DNA of 64,000 nt, from the NCBI RefSeq assembly GCF_019649055.1, contig NW_026570225.1, forward strand, positions 1,488,001 through 1,552,000, given 5' to 3'. The notes below the pieces were generated by a model. That model did no database searches, was not told the DNA's origin, and was given only the letters and a program-made list of their open reading frames with translations. Positions 22,972-61,801 of the stretch are shown here, in pieces. The stretch comes from Paramacrobiotus metropolitanus. Taxonomy: Eukaryota; Tardigrada; Eutardigrada; Parachela; Macrobiotidae. The position numbers and the translations under genes are program-made. How positions within the stretch are numbered: position 1 is the first letter of the stretch; every line of letters starts with the position of its first letter.

Positions 22972-23550
22972 TGGGTTTGGATCGTTTCTTGGGTCAGCTA
23001 TTTTGCTCGGAAAATCTGGGCTGGAAGAAACTATGATGGGAACTGTGTTTTTAACATTACTAATCCGCGTTAAGTTGGTGAGATTTGCGTTAATACAGTT
23101 GGAATATGCGAGTCGTAAATATTAATATTACTTACTTGTATCGTAATACTTGTATCGCGTCATACCGACTCACATTCCAGCTTTCCGACTTGTTGCTTCT
23201 AGCTTTCTGTTGAATGTTTTATGCATCTTTTCTCAGTTACTCCATTATTTTGATGAAAAAATGTAAATAATTAACGAATCTAAATTAAATCTGTTTTTGA
23301 AGGTTTTGTCGTAAAATTGATAATGAATTACGCTTTAAGTTCACCAAGCTGCAAATGAGAAAGACAACTTTCTCAGGCTCTTAACAAGTTGCCTATTCTG
23401 GGCGAAATCATAACTGCACAATTTCGTTATCCATTTATCATTAGCGATAATTGTTTAGGCGGACAGTTTTACAAAACGTGTTGAAAACACTTAACACCGG
23501 TCGTTAGGGATGGTAAACAAATTGAGAACAAGGATGGTTTAAATTTTGTG
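22972..23550 (+). other. Spacer between FGFR1OP2-type and LIPT1 genes
   Basis: AT-rich, about 580 bp. It should hold the 3' UTR of the upstream gene and the promoter of LIPT1. A CCAG acceptor-like site at 23562-23565 precedes an alternative LIPT1 start, so a small leader exon supplying a mitochondrial targeting sequence could lie here. Confidence 0.35.
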
Positions 23551-24908
23551 ATGTGTAATTATCCAGGTTCTATGTCTAAACAATGGCGTGTTTTGATCTC
23601 TAAATCCCGGGATGTATACCTTAATCTGGCATGGGAAGATTGGCTGTATCGCAGGGAAAACTTTATTAACCAGAACATGTTGCTCCTATGGCGAAACGAT
23701 CCTTGTGTCGTGATTGGTCGTTATCAGAATCCTTGGAAAGAAGTGAACGTCTCATCCGCGAAGATGCTGGGTATCTCCATAGCGCGACGCTTTAGCGGGG
23801 GCGGCACTGTGTACCATGACCTGGGCAATGTGAATTTTACTTTTTTAACTGAAAGGAGTTTGTATAATCGACGGAAAAATTTGGAGTTTATTGTGGATCT
23901 GTTGAGGAAAGACTACAATGTGCCGGCGACGGTAAACAAGCGGGATGACATTGTGGTCAATAATTCCTTGAAAATTTCCGGTACGGCCGCCAAGCTTGGA
24001 CGCACCACAGCCTATCATCACTGCACGCTTTTGGTATCCGTTATTAAAGACCAGTTACATGCGGTGTTGTCTGCAAAAAATGTAAGCGATAATATTCTGC
24101 AGGCAGCGTTTCTTTATATATATTTGGAACGTTAGCATTCAACTCGTGGAACTAGTAGTACTTACTATTAATTGTACATCATGCAGACTGTCTTACTGAA
24201 TGTCGTACAATACTACTTAATTGTCGTACAATACTACTTAATCAAATTAAGCTAAAAGTGTCTTTCTTAGTTTATAAATTGTTAATCGTAAAATATTTCC
24301 CTTTTAATGCGTTTTTAAATTTCTCTTTTTAAGCATCCTTTCGATTTCAGAAAGGAATAAGAACAAACGCCACGGAAAGTCTTCCAAGTCCTACAGTCAA
24401 TTTAGCGGAAATTGTGGCCGGGATTGAGTGCGAAACTTTGATACACGGATATGCGAAAAGTTTTGCCGCGTTGAATGAGTCTTTTGTAGACAATGTGATG
24501 GTGAAGGAAGTCACTCCAACCAATGTTGAATATCCAGGTCTCTCCACAGTTGCCGACGATCTACGCAGCACGGATTTTGTATTCGGGAAAACCCCCAAAT
24601 TTAACATTGTCAGAGAGTACCTGCTACCCAACGAAGGAGCGGATGCGCTACGATTGTTATTCGATATTCTGGTGGATAAAGGTGTTGTACAAGGGGCAAA
24701 TATTGAGGGAAACCTGCATCCCAGTGTAATGTCGGCATTACGGTCCGTGTGCGCACAGCTCGACGGTATTGCTTATGACTCCCATCTGATGTGGTCAGTT
24801 TTTGAAAAAAGCATGTTATTATCGCCGTTTAACGAGCCTCCCGAAGGTCGAATAGAAATGGATTTTGCATTGAGATGCCTTTTGCGTACGGTGACCTGTC
24901 AAGAGTAA
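23551..24908 (+). CDS. LIPT1: Lipoyltransferase 1, mitochondrial
   Basis: Transfers the lipoyl group to E2 subunits of 2-oxoacid dehydrogenases in mitochondria (BPL/LPL fold). Two exons, 23551-24081 and 24351-24908, joined in phase 0, give about 362 aa (human about 373). Diagnostic motifs are VIGRYQNPWKEVN, the lipoyl-AMP-binding RRFSGGGTVYHDLGNVNFTF, the catalytic-lysine segment LKISGTAAKLGRTTAYHHCT and KGIRTNATESLPS at the splice junction. A C-terminal accessory domain starts near IYGKTP-like FGKTPKFN. The first ATG is 23551; Met 23575 (MSKQWRVLIS) is an alternative. Neither gives a strong mitochondrial presequence, so a missed 5' exon or the acceptor at 23565 should be considered. The intron contains a 21-bp direct duplication. 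Confidence 0.95.
24201..24242. repeat. Exact 2 x 21-bp tandem duplication in the LIPT1 intron
   Basis: The unit TGTCGTACAATACTACTTAA plus T occurs twice back to back, at 24201-24221 and 24222-24242, with no mismatch. This points to a recent slippage-type duplication. It lies well inside the intron and should not affect splicing. Confidence 0.9.
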
Positions 24909-34203: not shown

Positions 34204-34752
34204 TCACTTAAGAGATTTCATCTGCCACAATCCGTCATTAAGAAAATGTATTAAATCGACAGCAATGCCTTTGTTTGTCTTCCGCACAGCTTCCGTGCTC
34301 ATCTTCATAACTCCAATGCCCAAGGCGTGCTGCTTGCCTTCGGCTACAATCAGAACAGGAGTGTCTTTCTCCACTATCGACATCTTTCCGCCGGGGGAAG
34401 TCAGTCCAGGACACATAATGTTCGCACCGCTCAGAACAAACTTGATCGCCCCTTTATCCACTTGCATCCACGGTAGAATGAAGGGATACTTGTGGAGAAC
34501 GCGAAGGGACGGCAACATGGGACCATCGCGATGCTTGAAGAAAAGAATATCGCCCGTCTGCGAAGCAATCAGTTCGATATGATCCTGGCATTTCACGAGT
34601 TTGACATTATCCTTTTTCGGCCAGATCTCATCGAGGTAGGATTCCACATGTGGATATTTCTCCAGCAAACCTTGACGGTAATTGCGAATTACGGATGATT
34701 TCAGCTGTGAACTTCCTGTTACGGATTCCTTCTCGGAGAACTTCTTAAACAT
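34204..34752 (-). CDS. MCTS1: MCTS1 (malignant T-cell amplified sequence 1) translation re-initiation factor
   Basis: With its partner DENR, this family removes deacylated tRNA from post-termination 40S subunits and promotes re-initiation after short upstream ORFs. It is a single uninterrupted exon of 182 aa, against 181 in human, and the length match supports ATG 34752. It starts [20 protein letters not shown] as in the family. An N-terminal domain (residues 1-90; [35 protein letters not shown]) precedes the PUA domain from about residue 92 ([52 protein letters not shown]) and the [16 protein letters not shown]-terminus. It is transcribed away from DMAC2, whose start lies about 600 bp upstream. 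Nothing looks broken. Confidence 0.98.
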
Positions 34753-35358
34753 ATTGAATCAGGAAATCTAAGAAAATGGAAAGCAACACAGTAATAATTA
34801 TGCTGCAAACTGATTGTCACGCCAAAAACAAAACCACCAGAATTAATCAGAAATATGAATCTGAAAATTTTGTTCGTAAAATGAAAATCCACAATTCCGT
34901 GCGATGGATTATTAAAAAAAAATTGCTTATCCATGGGGCCACGGATACATATCTTGAAAAAACGTATCAGGCAACCTTTGCCCAGTGGCGGGCAATATTG
35001 AGCGAGCGGATTTGGATTTGCCATTTAGTGATTTACCTAAGTATTAAATTGTATGCTGCACGTAATTTTATTTTCTTTTCCAGATTTCATTATTTTCACA
35101 TTTCTTCGAAAATGTTTGCCGTTTGTAGCTGCGAACAAGCGAATTTTTTCTACCTGTTAGTCAATCAGTAGGTTACGAATCTCCATGACACAGTATCAAC
35201 ATCTTGTTCACACTACAGAATCTGCACGGCTGAACCTACTTCAGTGAAAAAGGTGCGTACTAGTACTTCAGCTTCAAATCCGTGCTGCTGCTGTTCACTT
35301 AAATTGGGCGTTTTTTCGTTATTGAGTAGTTTTGGGGTTGTGATTTTAGTTCATAAAC
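34753..35358. promoter_or_regulatory. Shared divergent promoter region, MCTS1 (-) and DMAC2 (+)
   Basis: Only 606 bp separate the two start codons, which point away from each other, so both core promoters must lie here unless leader exons overlap. No TATA box at a fitting position is obvious, as is common for housekeeping gene pairs. The ORFs in this interval show no domain. Confidence 0.5.
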
Positions 35359-40105: not shown

Positions 40106-42125
40106 ATGATCGCTTTAAACTTATCTAATAAATTGGTGGAATTCCTGGGACGCGTTCCGGTATTATACATACAGGAGAAAATCCTGAGAAAATGGGCTGC
40201 TCCCACCGCCGGACTATATCCGTTCAGCGTAAAGGAATCCTTGAGTAAAGCTCTCGTGATTATGCACTTCCTGTCTCTCACAAAACACCTTCGAAACACT
40301 GTGCCTTTCTGTAGTCCTCCTGATGAGCTGGTTTTGCATCAAATTCCTCCCGACACACCACTACCGTTTACTGCTCTGTCTGGCCGAAATTACCGCCATC
40401 CTGGTCTTATCCGTGTTCCTTAACGGAGTGGTACCCAATGCCGAATACCGCTGGTACAACTTTCGTCCACCGGAATACACTACTGTGTTGCTGCAGTTAA
40501 TCATCTTTCGCATATTAGACACTTGCCTGGAAGGGACCTGGCAGTTGCTGCTAGTGTCCTGGCAGAATGTTGAACTTTTTCGGAAATATATTGCGAATGC
40601 TAGTCAGCTGCGCCAATTGTTTTTTTGGAATTATTTGACATATCCGTGGATTTGTTACTCTTTTATCACCAGTGATGGGGGCGCTTGGAGTGAGCGTGCG
40701 AAACCCGGTGTACTGAAAGGTCACGAAGGGCACTGGATTCTTGTTTTTGCTGTCGCGATTGTGGAAGTTTTCGAGGTCACGGTTTTCTTAGTGATCTACT
40801 TCATGGATTATTTTTACCGGAATTTTGAATTGCGCCTAACAGCAGTAAAATGTGGACTGCTGTATTCATATTTTCAACATATCTTCTGGCCGACAATTCC
40901 TTTCCGAACCGAAGCGTATGCCTATCTTCACGTGTGGATTATGAAAATCATCATTAGTATTTCATCATCACGTCCACCCGTTCGTGAAATCCTTTCGGGT
41001 TGGTATAGCCATCATAATATTCATAAATATATTGGGAGTTTTCTGTTCTCTTCCATATTGAAAGCCTCGTGTGAGAGTGTTGTGGCGTTTTGGGGTTTCA
41101 GTTATTTCTTAGCAGGATGCACAAGCCTGTTTATCCAGTGTTGGCATTTCATTACCGCCTTAATAATGGGTGTATCGTACCGATTTCTGCTGGAGCCCGA
41201 TTTTCGTGCATTTGATCAGAGTTTGCTGCTGCAAGTATTTATTGACGATTTGCAGCTGGACCATTTCACTGCAGTGCGGGCGTTGGCCACGAAGCCCACT
41301 ATCACGCGTCAGCTGATCGATGTAACGAAGTTAATGGGAATCTTTTGCGTACTGCACTATTTGTTTCTCATTCCGCGAAGATGTAAACGGTTTTTAAGAG
41401 AGATCATTCAAAAAGAATTGCCACTTCCGCCGGTTATCATAACGATCCTTAATTCAGCGGTGCTGCCCATGATTTTAACATTCAAACTCTTTCTTATTTC
41501 TAAACATTGGATGATCGGAAATTTTGCTTTACTGTTCACTTCTCCGCAACCGTTTCGTAATTGGTTGACACTGGAAATCTGTAGCAGCATTTTGTACATA
41601 GTGTTTTACAGTGTTTTGTCGGGATTTTTGTTACCAGTTTTATATGTAGTACATTTGCAAAGGTCAGACAGCCTCTCTATCGTTCAGACTAAGGCTTTTC
41701 ATAAAGCGATAAAATTTTTAGAAAAATTTGAAAACTTTGCCAATTATCTTAGTCATTGTGGAATTGTGGGATGTGTAGCCAATATTGCGGCTTTATGGGA
41801 AATTTATCGTCGATGGGATGCAGTGACCTTATCCGGTGTACTGGAACTGTGCGGCCATGTTGTTCTTTTCTACGTTTGTATGGAGAATTTTAACCATGTT
41901 ATCAAAGCGAAACGAAAGCGGCGAGAAGTTTTATGTTTTCAACAATGTGCTCTGAAGTTAACGAAACCGGTCACGGGAAGCAGTTTAACTTGTTATTTGT
42001 GTAACAATACGGGGGATGATTTTCTGGCTTTGCCTTGTACGCACTCGTTTCATAAGGCTTGTTTAAAAATATGGTTCGTGCAAAATTGTGTGTGCCCTGT
42101 ATGTCGGAAAGAAATCTACATTTGA
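40106..42125 (+). CDS. TRC8/RNF145-like multi-pass membrane RING-H2 E3 ligase, with apparent frameshift near residue 60
   Basis: ER-type E3 ubiquitin ligase family (RNF139/TRC8, RNF145). The long open frame 40323-42125 encodes 600 aa with a dozen or so hydrophobic segments and a C-terminal RING-H2: CYLC, then PCTHSFHKACLKIW and CPVCR, all eight zinc ligands present. The natural N-terminus appears in another frame: from ATG 40106, LSNKLVEFLGRVPVLYIQEK aligns with the RNF145 start. The 600-aa frame upstream of its own ATG also continues the family pattern (LSVVLLMSWF against LSVVLLTL). The two frames overlap at about 40270-40320 without a GT-AG intron, so one base seems gained or lost, perhaps in the CAAAAC run at 40281-40286. 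This could be a real mutation, assembly error or recoding. There is one coding exon; the sterol-sensing role of relatives is not shown here. Confidence 0.8.
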
Positions 42126-54097: not shown

Positions 54098-54634
54098 TCA
54101 TCGCCGCCTGTTCTCACGGTCGCGATAGCCCGTCCGATTCCCTTCCCGCTCCCTGTCCCTGTCGCGATCATTGCGAGGTCCGCGTGACATGTGCGAATGA
54201 ATGCACACATCCAAGACGTCCCCGGCTTGCACGTACCATTCCTCCAGGGTCTTATTCTCCACCCGTTCATCCCCGGGCTTACTGCCAATAAATACCTCCC
54301 CCATATTGCGGCTGCGATACCCTGGATGTTGCTGTTCCGGCGTGAGCAAGTGGAAGCTCAACCGCGTACCCAGCCGACGCGCTTCGGGACGGACTTCGCG
54401 GATGATGTTGGTTAACTCGCGGAGGGTGGCGTCCACCCACGTGTGAATTAACAACAGGCGCTCGTCGTTTGGTAGATTGCCAGAATTGATTTCGGAAGGT
54501 TTGAGATGGGTATTGGACTGGATGAACGTCCGAATTAAAATGGGGCAAGTGCTTTCACGATCCACAACACGTCGTTCGCGTTCCGTGTTCAGAATGACGG
54601 TCGCCACTTGGGACTCGATGCGGGGTGCAGCCAT
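54098..54634 (-). CDS. SAP18: SAP18, Sin3-associated polypeptide / ASAP complex subunit
   Basis: Ubiquitin-fold adaptor of the Sin3-HDAC corepressor and of the ASAP/PSAP exon-junction-associated complexes, in the nucleus. Single coding exon of 178 aa. Family blocks in order are VDRESTCPILIRTF, then ERLLLIHTWVDATLRELTNI, IREVRPEARRLGTRLSFHLL, PGYRSRNMGEVFIG and the final strands EEWYVQAGDVLDVCIHSHM. The core matches human SAP18 closely. After residue about 148 the protein carries an extra tail of Arg-Asp/Arg-Glu repeats (RNDRDRDREREGNR and YRDRENRRR), not present in the 153-aa human protein. The start codon is followed by MAAPRIESQVA, consistent with the human N-terminus. It is transcribed away from PDCL3, with 680 bp between the start codons. 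Confidence 0.96.
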   Translation of the reverse strand: MAAPRIESQVATVILNTERERRVVDRESTCPILIRTFIQSNTHLKPSEINSGNLPNDERLLLIHTWVDATLRELTNIIREVRPEARRLGTRLSFHLLTPEQQHPGYRSRNMGEVFIGSKPGDERVENKTLEEWYVQAGDVLDVCIHSHMSRGPRNDRDRDREREGNRTGYRDRENRRR

Positions 54635-55313
54635 CGTGCCTGGAAAGATGCAGATAGCAAAATCGGTAGCTTTTAATAACTCATTCGTTTAAACAGCTTC
54701 TTTCGCACAAGCAGTGGGAAACATAAAGTAGCCCTGTCAGTGGCATGTTCTGCAACTCACCCGTGGCTGTAACGCAGAAACATCAAAATCTGAGTTAAAC
54801 CTCAAATATTACCAAGTAAAATCCACAAAGAACCTTAAAGGAGGCTCAACAGCCTGAACTTAATAATCAGCTAAACAATAAACAGATACCGATGTCGACG
54901 AAATGCACTATATCGATAAACTGTTAAAAAAGAAAAAGATGGCCTTTGATTGTCATTTATGTATATAATATGAAAAAAAGAAAAGAAAAAGCTACCTGCT
55001 ACTCAGCGCAGAAGAATAAAATAGGGTATATATTAAAAAAATCGGCAGTAAAATGTCTCACTTTGCAAGCGACAGTTGCTGAGCCACAACCTAGGGCGGG
55101 CGAACGCATTTAATACGGCGTTAGTGAGACATTTACAGTATAGTAGCTACTAGCTACGAGTACTGTAGCCTACTATTCTTTTCTTAGTAATCCTACAGTA
55201 GTGGCGCAGTCGCTTCCTTTCATGGTATGGCCAAAATTCAAAAAATTACTTACGATTTAGTTATTTGTTTGGTTTGCTGGTTTTGTATTATTTGTCTTTT
55301 ATAAGGTTTAGAA
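54635..55313. promoter_or_regulatory. Shared divergent promoter region, SAP18 (-) and PDCL3 (+)
   Basis: 679 bp between two start codons pointing apart. The middle is AT-rich, with no coding frame and no clear TATA box. A CTACTAGCTACGAGTACTGTAG stretch, partly palindromic, sits near 55147-55169 and contains the window's recurrent TACGAGTA motif. Confidence 0.45.
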
Positions 55314-57654
55314 ATGCAGGTGGGTAGGCGTAATTTGTTTAGACTGTTCTGAATTGATTCGATACTGAATACTGCTTATTAGGATCCGTACGCCGATACC
55401 GAGTGGAACGATGCATTACGTAAAGCTGGAATTTTGCCTGAAAAGCCACCCATACGAACGCAAGAGACGGAATCGGAACCTGTATCGCTCACGCTCACTA
55501 AGGGTACTCCCTTATACCTCGGTCTTTTAGCTGCTGAATGGAATTACTGTACTTGATTCGGGGTTTAAGATGGCACAAAGGATTATGCTACCATGACGCT
55601 GGACGAGCTTGACGACTTCGAAGACGATGATCCAGAGTTTTTCGAGGAATTTAAGTGAGTCATTCACAGTGTTATTCGTTTTACCGAAAGATTGGTCACC
55701 ACCCGTGCATTACGTATTAAAGGAAGAAACGAATGGCCGAATGGAAGGAAAGTTTGATCAAGAAGCGATTTGGAGAAGTTTTAGAGATCTCGGGTGTGGA
55801 TTACGTGAAAGAAATCAATAATGCTGGAGAGGGCATTTGGGTGGTTCTGCATCTCTATAAGCAAGGGTATGATAGGCAAGGATTAGAAGTAATCGTGCTC
55901 GGATAACTTTGTTGCTGTCTGCTGTGCTTTTAATAAGAGAATATACTTATTAAGAATATTAACTTTAGGATGGACATGGCAGCAATCGTAATCAAGCAAT
56001 GCAGCACATAAAACATACTAGTATTATTAGTACATACTGCATTTAGGCAGCATTTTAATTGTGTTTTGTAGTTAGGTAATTCTTAGTTGATCACATTTGC
56101 ATACGTATTAATTTAGGATTTTGTGTCTTGTGTTTTACGAGCAGTTGTTTGTAAGACCTGTACAAATAGAAGACCGAACCCAAAAAATGCGGGATGTGAA
56201 ACACTTGTTGAACTTTGGCTCTTGTATCCTGTTTTCATCACTTGTTGCACGTTATGTTTTGTATTTTGTATTGTGTTGTACTTATTGCATTGTATTTGTT
56301 GATTCGTCTATTGTTTTGCAGATTTCCCCTTTGCGCATTGATAAATCGTCATATATCTGCACTAGCTCCGAAATTCCCTGACGTGAAATTTGTAAAGAGC
56401 ATTGCCACTACGTGCGTGCCAAATTTTCCCGATGCAAGCCTTCCGGCCATTTTTATCTACTTTGAAGGAGATCTGAAGCGGCAAATAGTTGGTCAGCTGG
56501 AGTTTGGTGGATTGAATCTTACTGAGCAAGGTCAGATCTGAAATACGAGTTATCATTTATGGTATCATGAATGCGATACACGAATGAATGGTCAACTATA
56601 TTTTAGCTTGTTTCTGATATGTGTTTCTGTGCTGTTTCTGGAAGTGAACATCCATTAACTTCGTTGCTTAAGGGATTTGGCCCGGTACATAGCACCAAAT
56701 TTGTATACATGATAATACATCCAAGGCAACTTTCGCTGTTGCGCACTCCCAAACACTTTTTTGCATTGCTTTATGCTATTTTGTAGCCAAAGGATTCGTA
56801 TACATATCTGTAGGCGAAAAAACCGTTTGTGGGCGCAACATCCGGTTCGGGAGTCATTAGTGAAATAAAAATCCAAAAGTTTAAACGCGCGGAGGTGTAC
56901 CAAAAGTCTCATTATGAACCGATGCTCTTCAAATTTTGCACGAAAACACACATTACTATGAAGATCGTTTTGGTACCGAACCAGCTTTCTACCATTTTTT
57001 TCAAATTTTAATATGAATTTCAAAAATTTTAAAAATTAGTTTAAAATTTGAAAAAAATGGTAGGAAAGCTGGTTCGGTGCCAAAACGATCTTCATAGTAA
57101 TGTGCGTTTTCGTGCAAAATTTGAAGAGCATCGGTTCATAATGAGACTTTTGGTACACCTCCGCGCGTTTAAACTTTTGGGATTTTATTTCACTAATAAC
57201 TCCCGAACCGGATGTTGCGCGCGCAAACGGATTTCACGCCTACGTATACAAATCCTTTGGCTACAAAATGTCATAAAGCAATGCAAAAACGTGTTTAGGA
57301 GTGCGCAATAGCGAAAGTTCCCGTGTATGTGCCCGAATTTGGTACTATGTACCGGGCCAAATCCCTTAAGTTGTTTTATGCTTTCATTGAAGTTAAATTC
57401 AATATCTGGTGGTGGATATAGTCACGTAGAATCACAATGTTGAATAGTATTACCGTACATAAAATTTTCGCAATGCACATGTGATAGGGTGATTCATGTA
57501 GATTTCGTTACATTCAGGGCTTGAGTGGATCCTCGCTCAGGAAGGAGTTTTGAAAACTGAATTAACGAGCGATCCACGGTTAACGGCTAACAACCGATCG
57601 CGAATCACAACAGTGCGGGGTCAAAATCGTGCTGATGATTCCGATGATGAGTAA
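55314..57654 (+). CDS. PDCL3: Phosducin-like protein 3 (PDCL3/VIAF), CCT chaperonin cofactor
   Basis: Thioredoxin-fold cochaperone that, in this family, helps the CCT/TRiC complex fold actin, tubulin and signalling proteins. Six exons, 55314-55319, 55383-55503, 55570-55654, 55723-55866, 56322-56530 and 57518-57654, sum to exactly 233 aa (human 239). Exon 1 encodes only Met-Gln before a GTGGGT donor. Exon 2 continues [19 protein letters not shown], the family's signature N-terminus. [16 protein letters not shown] matches the conserved MTLEEL segment. [20 protein letters not shown] and [14 protein letters not shown] lead into the phosducin domain ([44 protein letters not shown]). [16 protein letters not shown] precedes the acidic DDSDDE end, which is typical. 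The last intron (56531-57517) contains a complete foldback element. Confidence 0.97.
56668..57369. mobile_element. Foldback/MITE element copy 2, 702 bp, in the last PDCL3 intron
   Basis: Same family as the element at 12679-13371. It starts TTAAGGGATTTGGCCCGGTA and ends in the inverted copy with TTAA. The two arms mirror each other around an AT-rich centre near 57020, for example ATGAAGATCGTTTTGGTACC with its reverse near 57079-57097, and AACATCCGGTTCGGGAGT with its reverse near 57198-57215. Arms within this copy match each other better than they match copy 1, so palindrome symmetry is maintained or was recently renewed. No protein is encoded. It lies wholly inside the intron, between donor 56531 and acceptor 57517. 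Confidence 0.87.
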
Positions 57655-58792: not shown

Positions 58793-61700
58793 ATGGAGAC
58801 ACGTGCAGCTCGTCAGAAACGGCTTGTGGAGCAGGCGAATAATGCCTCCAGGAATTCCATTGCACCTGAAACTGCGCTCACGGGCCGTGTCAGTACTGGA
58901 GGTCCTCGATTGTCCTTTCTTTGTCACGCAGATAAGGGAATAATCCGAAAAGGTCAGTATATAGCCCCTCTGACAAGTGAATAAAAGCATTGATGATCCT
59001 GGATTTGTAAGTTGTGATTTCCGTGTAGACGATCGCGTGTGGGCATTACAAACGGACGAAAAAGGCAGTTCGCTGTGGCGATTGGCGAAGGTCATTGATG
59101 CTTCTGATCCTAAAGATTTCTCCAATTCGGACTCGTATTTGGTGCATATCTTCAGACAATCAGCTAGGTGAAATCTGTTCAATTCTGAAGAACTGAAATT
59201 AACGCGCTCCCAACCAGAATCTCTGTTCTTTTGCTTTTATAACTTTTAAAACTTGAGCACTAATGATAATCACTAATGTGGTATGCAATTTATTTAAAAT
59301 TGCTCCGACATGAGTTATCGATGGTAGTATTCTGCTTTATGATTAAAATAATGTTAGTGTAATAATCTGTTTTTTATCCAGTGTCCCGTATTGAGTAGTC
59401 TGTAGAAATGACCCGTAGAGGCCTCGCGCACATTGTTTCGCATTGCTGGATTACTCGATATTCAGGGATTGGAACCCTTTTGTGTCGCGCTTTATGGGTA
59501 AATAAAAAATATTTTACTGCTTTTCTAGTGCGGATACTTGGTTGTCCAAAGATTCCATTTTGACTAACACGGAGAAGAATCGTGCTGATGTCGTGAAACT
59601 CAACGGGGATTTGGAAAAGCAGTGAGTTAAAATGAACTACGTTGTTCGTTGTACTCGTAGTGGTTTAATGAAATCAGCCTTGTACCCGGAACTTCCTACC
59701 TTGCTGAAATTTGCTTAGAAAATTAATATGGTTTGCAGATTTTGTTTTTAATGTCGGAAGTCTGTATTATATCATAATGATAATTATTATGATGGATTGT
59801 GTGCGTATAAAGCACTTTGGAACATGTGGCTATTTTTAATGTACGGTTATGTACGGTATGTTTTTTATGTACGGTTTTTATGATTTATGTAGCTGGTACG
59901 TATGTAGCTGTTTTTGGTCATTCGGACTTTCCTGCATACATAATAATGATTTTATGCTGACTGGTGAGTCGCTGCAGGAATCCAAAGCCTTTCGCTGTCC
60001 GGAAATCCGGCCACCGCAGCTCGCTCTCAGCTGCAAATGGAAAATCTGGCGACTCGATGCTAAGATCTCACAATCAGAAAAACGCCTCTCAGTTGAAACT
60101 AGAGAAAATCGGAGAGGAGCAGAAAGAAAACGAAGATAAGAAAGCAAATGCTTGTACGTAATGGATAATCTGGCAGTTACATATTAGGCACATTGGGGAA
60201 GCAGACTCGCAATTTGATACATCCGTATATAACAGAGTAACGAAAGGTTATAACTGAAATGTGTGTTTGATTTTAATCAAACGCAGCCAAGTCCTTAATT
60301 CCGCTACCACGTAAACAGCGATTTCCATTTCCTCCGGCCAATATTGCATCTGCCGCTGAACCCGCACATCCCGTTATGAACTTTGACTATACAAGTATTA
60401 GGATTTCATCTATGCATGAAAAACTTTCAGATGGAATTTTGCGAATTGTGCCCGGAATGCGTAAGCAGATCGTTTTCTTTTGAGGCATATGTTGTTAGCT
60501 AGTGAATGTTTCTCCTTTTCAGGAGTTGTCAGCCATCCTACGTTTGGTGTAGATGGTGGTGATATATTTCGAGTGATGCGTACAGGGATTCTTCTCCGTC
60601 CGGAGCAAAGGGCGCCGAACACATTCGTGATGGTCAGCATATGTAAAAAGCCTTCCGTCCTGCCGGCAGAGGAATTTCATCCCCGTTGCTTGCGAATATT
60701 GGTAAATGAACAAATGGTTCAGAAAGTGAGTATAGCGGATCTAGCCGTTTTAATTGTCTTTTATTGATGTCAGTTCTGATGCAGATGTTTCCGGATGGCA
60801 AAGCACCGTACCCTCAGATCCCGTTGGAGATTCCAGCATCCGAAATGAACGATGTGAATGTGCTGGAGATTTCTTGGGTAGAATCGACACCTCAGGAGTT
60901 GGCAGTGGTAAGAACGTTACTTTGTTCCAGTAAGTGATTATTTTTTTTGAAATCAGCTCGCCTTGATACTTACAGGATTATTATGTATACGTGTACCTGG
61001 CCAAGCGGAAATCGGTTACGCAGGTGGTGGAATCGACGATTACCAATACGCTTACTTTAGCTGAATGTCTGGCACATGGTAATTCCTCAAATCATGGTGA
61101 TTTGCATCGTGTATCCGTATGCATATTTCAGGGTTTTGCATGTAATCATTTGCAGAACGCGATAGTGAGCTAAGCAGCGATATCACAACTGGATCGCGGA
61201 CGGTTCAGCTAAATTGTCCTATTTCGAAGCAGAGGATCGGTCTTCCTGTTCGTGGACGCTATTGCCGTCATTTACAGTGTTTTGACGCTGGTAGTTTCAT
61301 TTCTATTAACTTCGGACCCGCTGCACGATTCCTCTGCCCTTTATGCGCTCAGGTTGTGTTGCCACATCATCTTGTTGTCGACCAGTAAGTTTAATACTTG
61401 TTACGTCGGTGATCTGCGTTGATTATTATCAGTTTTGATAATCGTGCGTGAACTGCCGTGCACCTGTACTGCTGTAGGATTGATTTGGTAATGGAACACA
61501 AAATTGTCTAATTGTAAGCTAAGAAGGGCATCTTTTCGCAGATTTTTCCAGGAGCTGTGTATTTTTACAAAAGAACATTGTGTGGAGTTGCTTTTGGACG
61601 ATCTGGGAATCACCGCGCGAGAATTCACTAGAAAGGTTAAGGTGCCACTCCAGGTTTTGACGAACATAGCGCAAAGTGAGTTATCTTTATGACTTCGAAT

Positions 61701-61801
61701 ATAGTCGGCTGGTTAACCTGATGTTTATTTGTTTTACAGGCCGCATGCCCGGGCAGAACACAGCTAACGATCTGAATGAAAGCGTTGTTTGTTTGAATTA
61801 A
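58793..61801 (+). CDS. PIAS-like SUMO E3 ligase (PINIT + SP-RING) with an N-terminal chromo-barrel/Tudor-knot-like module
   Basis: Nuclear SUMO E3 ligase by domain content. Eleven exons, 58793-58952, 59029-59167, 59529-59621, 59978-60153, 60287-60460, 60523-60725, 60785-60907, 60976-61078, 61156-61384, 61542-61675 and 61740-61801, give exactly 531 codons plus stop. Residues about 54-130 (DDRVWALQTDEKGSSLWRLA, SDSYLVHIFRQS, ADTWLSKDSIL) follow the MRG15/TIP60 chromo-barrel pattern, in which YxVHxxGW..xxDxWV.xSRxL is typical. A basic linker follows, then a PINIT-type domain about 260-390 (CLRILVNEQMVQKMFPDGKA, VLEISWVES, YYVYVYLAKR). SP-RING follows about 405-455 (LNCPISKQRIGLPVRGRYCR, HLQCFDA, FLCPLC), with the expected Cys/His ligands. 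The tail ends DLNESVVCLN, a possible SUMO-interacting motif. PIAS proteins normally start with a SAP domain; none is seen. Confidence 0.85.

Follow-up and report, generated by a model that had tools for sequence, protein, structure and literature searches.

A stretch of 64,000 nucleotides of the Paramacrobiotus metropolitanus genome (the window; contig NW_026570225.1) probably holds one real tardigrade gene, here called gene A, that would encode a SUMO E3 ligase of the PIAS/Siz type, with a Royal-family barrel that replaces the SAP domain and tethers the ligase. Animal PIAS proteins have a SAP domain at the N-terminus, and in PIAS-type ligases the module at this end probably contributes to targeting.

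Gene A lies on the forward strand (58793..61801) and consists of 11 exons in an in-phase GT-AG chain encoding 531 aa. When the exons were re-derived, the coding total was 1596 nt, which equals 531 codons and the TAA stop; the sequence-only reading of this DNA had counted eleven exons and 531 codons between one ATG and one stop, and the same count was obtained here. Each of the ten introns has GT-AG borders, and in the 5' to 3' direction their phases are 1,2,2,1,1,0,0,1,2,1. The freedom of these phases was assessed by enumerating the GT/AG pairs that lie no farther than about 25 bases from the chosen intron ends. A single phase is possible at six of the ten introns (2, 3, 4, 5, 7, and 8), and alternative phases are possible at introns 1, 6, 9, and 10.

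Exon 1 (58793-58952) encodes the N-terminus (residues 1-53), in which K+R minus D+E is +6. Exon 2 (59029-59167; residues 54-99) begins the Royal-family barrel, as assigned by Pfam, structure matches, and paralog alignment, and exon 3 (59529-59621; residues 100-130) contains its end (DTWLSKDSIL) and a TEKNR extension. Exon 4 (59978-60153; residues 131-189) encodes a linker with a net charge of +5; a second GT at 60158, four bases further, would break the frame if used. Exons 5 (60287-60460), 6 (60523-60725), 7 (60785-60907), and 8 (60976-61078) together make up a PINIT-like region (60287..61078; residues about 190-390), delimited by alignments with PIAS3 and PIAS2. The SP-RING is encoded by exon 9 (61156-61384), with zf-MIZ at 61203-61349, and is followed by the C-terminal region in exon 10 (61542-61675) and a short tail in exon 11 (61740-61801). 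Retention of intron 4 would stop translation two codons on (60154-60161) and leave a barrel-only protein of 191 residues, which is a possible alternative product of gene A.

The C-terminal half is PIAS-like. In Pfam the protein matches zf-MIZ at residues 407-455 with E = 2.7e-15, above the cut-off, and zf-Nse gives a weak match over the same region. Among solved structures the best matches are PIAS2 (E = 2.6e-15; gene A residues 281-474), PIAS3 (2.4e-12; 252-482), yeast Siz1 (7e-9; 323-475), and Siz2 (1.5e-8), and the next match of the full protein is MSL3 (E = 0.054). The Cys/His zinc-ligand positions of the SP-RING line up with those of PIAS2 and PIAS3. The Pfam PINIT model has no match in the 531-aa protein at E 10, and therefore the PINIT-like region is assigned from the PIAS3 and PIAS2 alignments, which begin at residues 252 and 281. 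The Pfam SAP model likewise finds no match in this protein at E 10, the HMMER filters being on. By eye, a VIDLT-type SUMO-interaction motif is absent from the C-terminus of gene A, and a paralog, gene B, has STIVDLTK.

The N-terminal segment is most likely a divergent Royal-family barrel, intermediate between the MSL3-type chromo-barrel and the PWWP domain. In the whole protein, residues 53-119 match MSL3_chromo-like (PF22732) with E = 0.0017, below the curated cut-off; on the isolated segment the match is E = 6.3e-5, with 23.4 bits against a cut-off of 28. The best solved structure for the segment alone is the MSL3 chromo-barrel (E = 0.006). The MSL3 segment is aligned over its full length; the spacing is identical, and the T-E-x-N-R tail is similar in both. 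PWWP domains and chromo-barrels are described as structurally alike, the chromo-barrel being without the PWWP motif (PMC3119473).

Barrels were also found in two paralogs, genes B and D (see below), and each of the three was aligned with reference barrels, the score being compared with those of 1000 shuffles and the shuffles as good being counted. For gene A, the counts are 0/1000 with MSL3, 17/1000 with MRG15, and 214/1000 with MSH6, the last being not above chance. For gene B they are 0/1000 with MSH6, 23/1000 with MRG15, and 540/1000 with MSL3, and for gene D 0/1000 with MSL3, 5/1000 with MSH6, and 83/1000 with MRG15. The spacing between H and W, judged by eye, is 11 in gene A, as in MSL3 and MRG15, and 10 in genes B and D, as in PWWP domains. 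The P-W-W-P motif itself is absent from the barrels, of which the second tryptophan alone is retained (by eye). W70 and W104 (gene A numbering) are invariant across the three barrels, and the MSL3 tryptophan in line with W104 is not part of the cage. In Pfam, the gene D segment has only a weak PWWP match (E = 0.024; 15.6 bits against a cut-off of 25.6), which is the best PWWP match of the three, none being found for the barrels of genes A and B. The gene B barrel alone matched neither the MSL3-type chromo-barrel nor the PWWP family in Pfam, and the gene D barrel alone had zero matches to solved structures in the PDB search.

A profile built from the three barrels and searched against solved structures gave 17 rows, no one of which is significant alone and among which are unrelated enzymes; the MSH6 PWWP (E = 0.049) and the NSD2 PWWP (0.23) rank first, and MSL3 (0.32), KAT5 (0.58), and MOF (0.71) also appear. 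In profile-profile comparisons, which are confined to 30-32 columns in the latter half of the barrel and to Royal-group families, in sets partly picked from earlier hits, the three barrels gave 85.5% and a score of 32.3 against four chromo-barrels (shuffle maximum 16.2; reached by 0/150 column shuffles). They gave 94.0% and a score of 38.9 against six PWWP pieces, two of which come from this genome and one of those two lies below the Pfam cut-off (shuffle maximum 17.1; 0/150). Because the sets were partly chosen from hits and cover Royal-group families only, these values favour the Royal family in the broad sense and do not decide its branch.

Since the three barrels fall between PWWP domains and MSL3-type chromo-barrels, with A fitting MSL3, B fitting MSH6, and D lying between, the label 'MRG15-type' given to the barrel by the sequence-only reading is rejected as too narrow. 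The assignment to the Royal family stands by sequence, and it is the MRG15 part of the label that does not: gene A alone has the MSL3/MRG15 spacing, the three-barrel profile scores no worse with PWWP, and the match of gene A with MRG15 itself is poor. The protein also has no match to an MRG domain in Pfam at E 10.

The cage residues of MSL3, which we take to be Y31, F56, W59, and W63, correspond in gene A to R, I, Q, and A in the MSL3 alignment, so that 0/4 of these columns are aromatic; a tryptophan of gene A lies one column away from the first. In genes B and D, too, neither tryptophan of the GWNxxW stretch is kept. The methyl-lysine pocket of the gene A barrel therefore looks mostly lost, and the proposal that SUMO ligation is placed directly under histone-methyl recognition is unsupported, because none of the cage columns is aromatic. 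A barrel that functions in methyl-lysine reading, as either a chromo-barrel or a PWWP domain, and puts SUMO ligation under histone-methyl control is unlikely. The similarity of the gene A barrel to MSL3 speaks for such a reader, as does the invariant W70, which by eye is near the PWWP-motif position; a new cage might form from F95 or other aromatic residues; and the PHD finger of plant SIZ1, which recognises H3K4me3 (PMC6954211), is a precedent in a SUMO E3. Against these points stand the cage columns of gene A and the loss of both GWNxxW tryptophans in genes B and D.

With the aromatic cage mostly lost, a tether to nucleic acid or to a partner protein is preferred over one to methyl-lysine. 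The MOF chromo-barrel, which like that of gene A has no full cage, binds RNA instead of methylated tails, and DNA binding is known for MSL3 and several PWWP domains (PMC6222470). The net charge of the gene A barrel is -2, a value that lends no support to nucleic-acid binding by the barrel on its own. Since the barrel lies between positive flanks (exon 1, +6; exon-4 linker, +5), the flanks may do part of the tethering.

A CAHS-like query matches the genome at 18 places with E of 0.01 or better, the best being 83% identical, which points to a tardigrade, CAHS proteins being described as specific to that group (PMC9224920). The genome (169.8 Mb, 533 contigs) contains nine zf-MIZ places, gene A included. 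Beyond the window, eight loci were examined, comprising the stretches with the eight other zf-MIZ places and a barrel match on contig C26. Genome searches with the Tudor-knot, MSL3_chromo-like, and PWWP profiles gave 33, 19, and 8 places, respectively, and gene A, whose barrel is split by an intron, is in none of these. The 5 rows of a search with the gene A barrel were confined to the window and contig C26, the barrel of gene B being missed, and the PINIT profile matched the genome weakly at a single place, which is on a different contig.

Gene B, on contig C4, has a barrel upstream of its SP-RING. The gene A protein matches it weakly by tblastn (E = 0.079), and its second barrel exon was identified by eye on the SP-RING locus. 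It can be modelled with the order barrel, linker, PINIT, and SP-RING, as in gene A. The ten exons of the model through the SP-RING are separated by nine introns with the phases of gene A, the splice sites of genes B and D having been chosen by eye with gene A in mind and the gene B model stopping short of the tenth donor and the last exon. Exons 7 and 8 are equal in length between the two genes (123 and 103). By the same 25-base enumeration, introns 1, 2, 3, and 7 of gene B allow the chosen phase only, and three of these are around the barrel; at introns 4, 5, 6, 8, and 9 the pairs giving the chosen phase are 8/12, 1/7, 2/3, 4/8, and 1/2. As introns 1-3 are forced, the barrel exons are joined as in gene A without freedom. 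The junction at intron 4, from linker to PINIT, is likely to be as modelled, though its phase is unforced. The barrels of A and B are only 25% identical, and gene B is therefore no recent copy.

Gene D (model at L001:2710-4809, contig C26) has a barrel and no SP-RING. Its first four intron phases are those of gene A, three of the four being forced by the 25-base enumeration, and the model ends after the fifth exon, with PINIT and SP-RING absent. A hydrophobic stretch at its start is a possible membrane anchor. Its barrel is 42% identical to that of gene A, with dN of 0.51 and dS of 1.88; dS is near saturation, and A-D is the sole pair computable of the three. These values suggest that the barrel is under constraint. 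Beyond A, B, and D, no further barrel was found when the three-barrel profile, built from A, B, and D themselves, was applied to 4285 frames (18 residues or longer) of the eight loci and the window (next best E = 0.82); since most other SP-RING places were covered by about 4-5 kb upstream (seven loci), first exons lying farther away may have escaped this search.

Immediately downstream of gene B, on the minus strand of L004, is a tandem SP-RING gene (gene C) in which the three-barrel profile finds no barrel. A long proline-rich frame is upstream of gene C, and its first 207 residues are without a Pfam match. In the SP-RING tree (12 rows), 0/9 inner branches are starred, and the kinship of A, B, and C is not resolved by it. 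Two further SP-RING genes, at L002 and L003, have near-alike SP-RINGs and long serine/proline-rich frames; in L002, a far-upstream frame matches the SAP-like models Rho_N/HeH weakly (0.0026 and 0.0051), short of the cut-off.

The zf-MIZ match, together with the matching order and phases of the gene B model, confirms at the level of the sequence that the gene A chain exceeds chance. The fusion of a barrel with a PINIT-like region and SP-RING, described in the sequence-only reading, is likewise supported by the domain searches and by gene B. It is very unlikely that exons 1-4 are a barrel gene and exons 5-11 a separate, adjacent PIAS gene. Such a division would fit gene D, modelled as a barrel-only gene that shares the first four phases and closes with a separate terminal exon, and the stop two codons past the exon 4 donor of gene A; the corresponding junction of gene B, moreover, is not forced. 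Nevertheless, gene B has the same order on another contig with a linker exon in the equivalent place, and the exon 4/5 junction of gene A has one in-frame GT/AG pair only within the range tested. There is also an in-frame stop just upstream of exon 5, and a start at the first ATG of exon 5 would drop the preceding sequence, which is gene B-like. The reading as separate genes is therefore disfavoured, by the gene B order and the single in-frame pair in particular. Also very unlikely is a different small beta domain in the N-terminal segment, or disorder there that matches by chance, for although the segment's single-sequence matches are weak or below cut-off and its profile reached E = 0.049 at best among structures that included unrelated enzymes, both profile comparisons beat all 150 shuffles, no shuffle equalled A with MSL3 or B with MSH6, and the segment recurs in three paralogs with A-D values that, with dS near saturation, suggest constraint.

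Several other features of the window may be mentioned. A stretch at 56655-57311, beside gene A, and one at L010 are near-alike in their translated frames and opposite in orientation; the sequence around the L010 place is also similar, and the two are probably a dispersed repeat. The minus strand carries a SAP18 domain, complete in one frame (54098-54688; E = 1.9e-30), and a Pre-PUA/PUA protein (34204-34758). On the plus strand are a lipoyl ligase catalytic domain (23485-24135) and one long frame that combines hydrophobic stretches with a RING finger at the C-terminus (40260-42125), possibly a membrane ubiquitin ligase.

Compared with animal PIAS1-4, gene A has the same PINIT-like region followed by the SP-RING, both alignable with the PIAS2 and PIAS3 structures; it differs in having an N-terminal Royal-family barrel and linker and no SAP match, and in its short tail, where by eye no SIM is evident. 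Compared with MSL3, MRG15, and MOF, it is without an MRG or acetyltransferase domain match and its barrel is joined to a SUMO ligase; moreover, its MRG15 match is weak, and paralog B looks more PWWP-like. The likeness to PWWP domains (MSH6, NSD2/3) is in the leading rows of the profile search, which are not significant, and, for the paralogs, in the spacing of B and D and the match of B with MSH6; the missing P-W-W-P motif and the chance-level match of A with MSH6 set the barrels apart. CBX4 (Pc2) has a true chromodomain and, unlike gene A, is not known to have an SP-RING. The resemblance to gene A is that this chromodomain protein is called a SUMO E3 ligase. Plant SIZ1 carries a SAP domain, and its additional module is a PHD finger beside SAP and not a barrel replacing SAP. 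As in gene A, a PIAS-type ligase is combined there with an extra module, in SIZ1 a chromatin-binding one.

Among the open-access papers searched, none was found to report a Royal-family barrel that replaces SAP in a PIAS-type ligase of animals. The domain order of the fusion, which the sequence-only reading had regarded as unusual, thus appears unreported within that scope; reader modules on SUMO E3s as such have precedents in SIZ1 and CBX4.

In the preferred reading of gene A as a PIAS/Siz-type ligase with a barrel in place of SAP, the PINIT and SP-RING would hold E2~SUMO and the substrate, as in PIAS, and the barrel and its flanks would tether the ligase to a local platform, which would more likely be nucleic acid or a partner protein than methyl-lysine. 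An extension of this reading, which we consider doubtful and offer tentatively, is that there is a tardigrade SUMO ligase subfamily in which a cage-less reader barrel replaced SAP and directs SUMO to RNA, DNA, or a partner, with the barrel-only gene D competing for or relocating that partner.

The fusion by itself does not place SUMO under histone-methyl control. The barrels of A, B, and D seem to bridge the MSL3-type chromo-barrel and the PWWP domain, which bears on the change of ligand in reader domains. The exchange of SAP for such a barrel would amount to a natural experiment on substrate finding by SUMO ligases, set in an animal group noted for stress tolerance.
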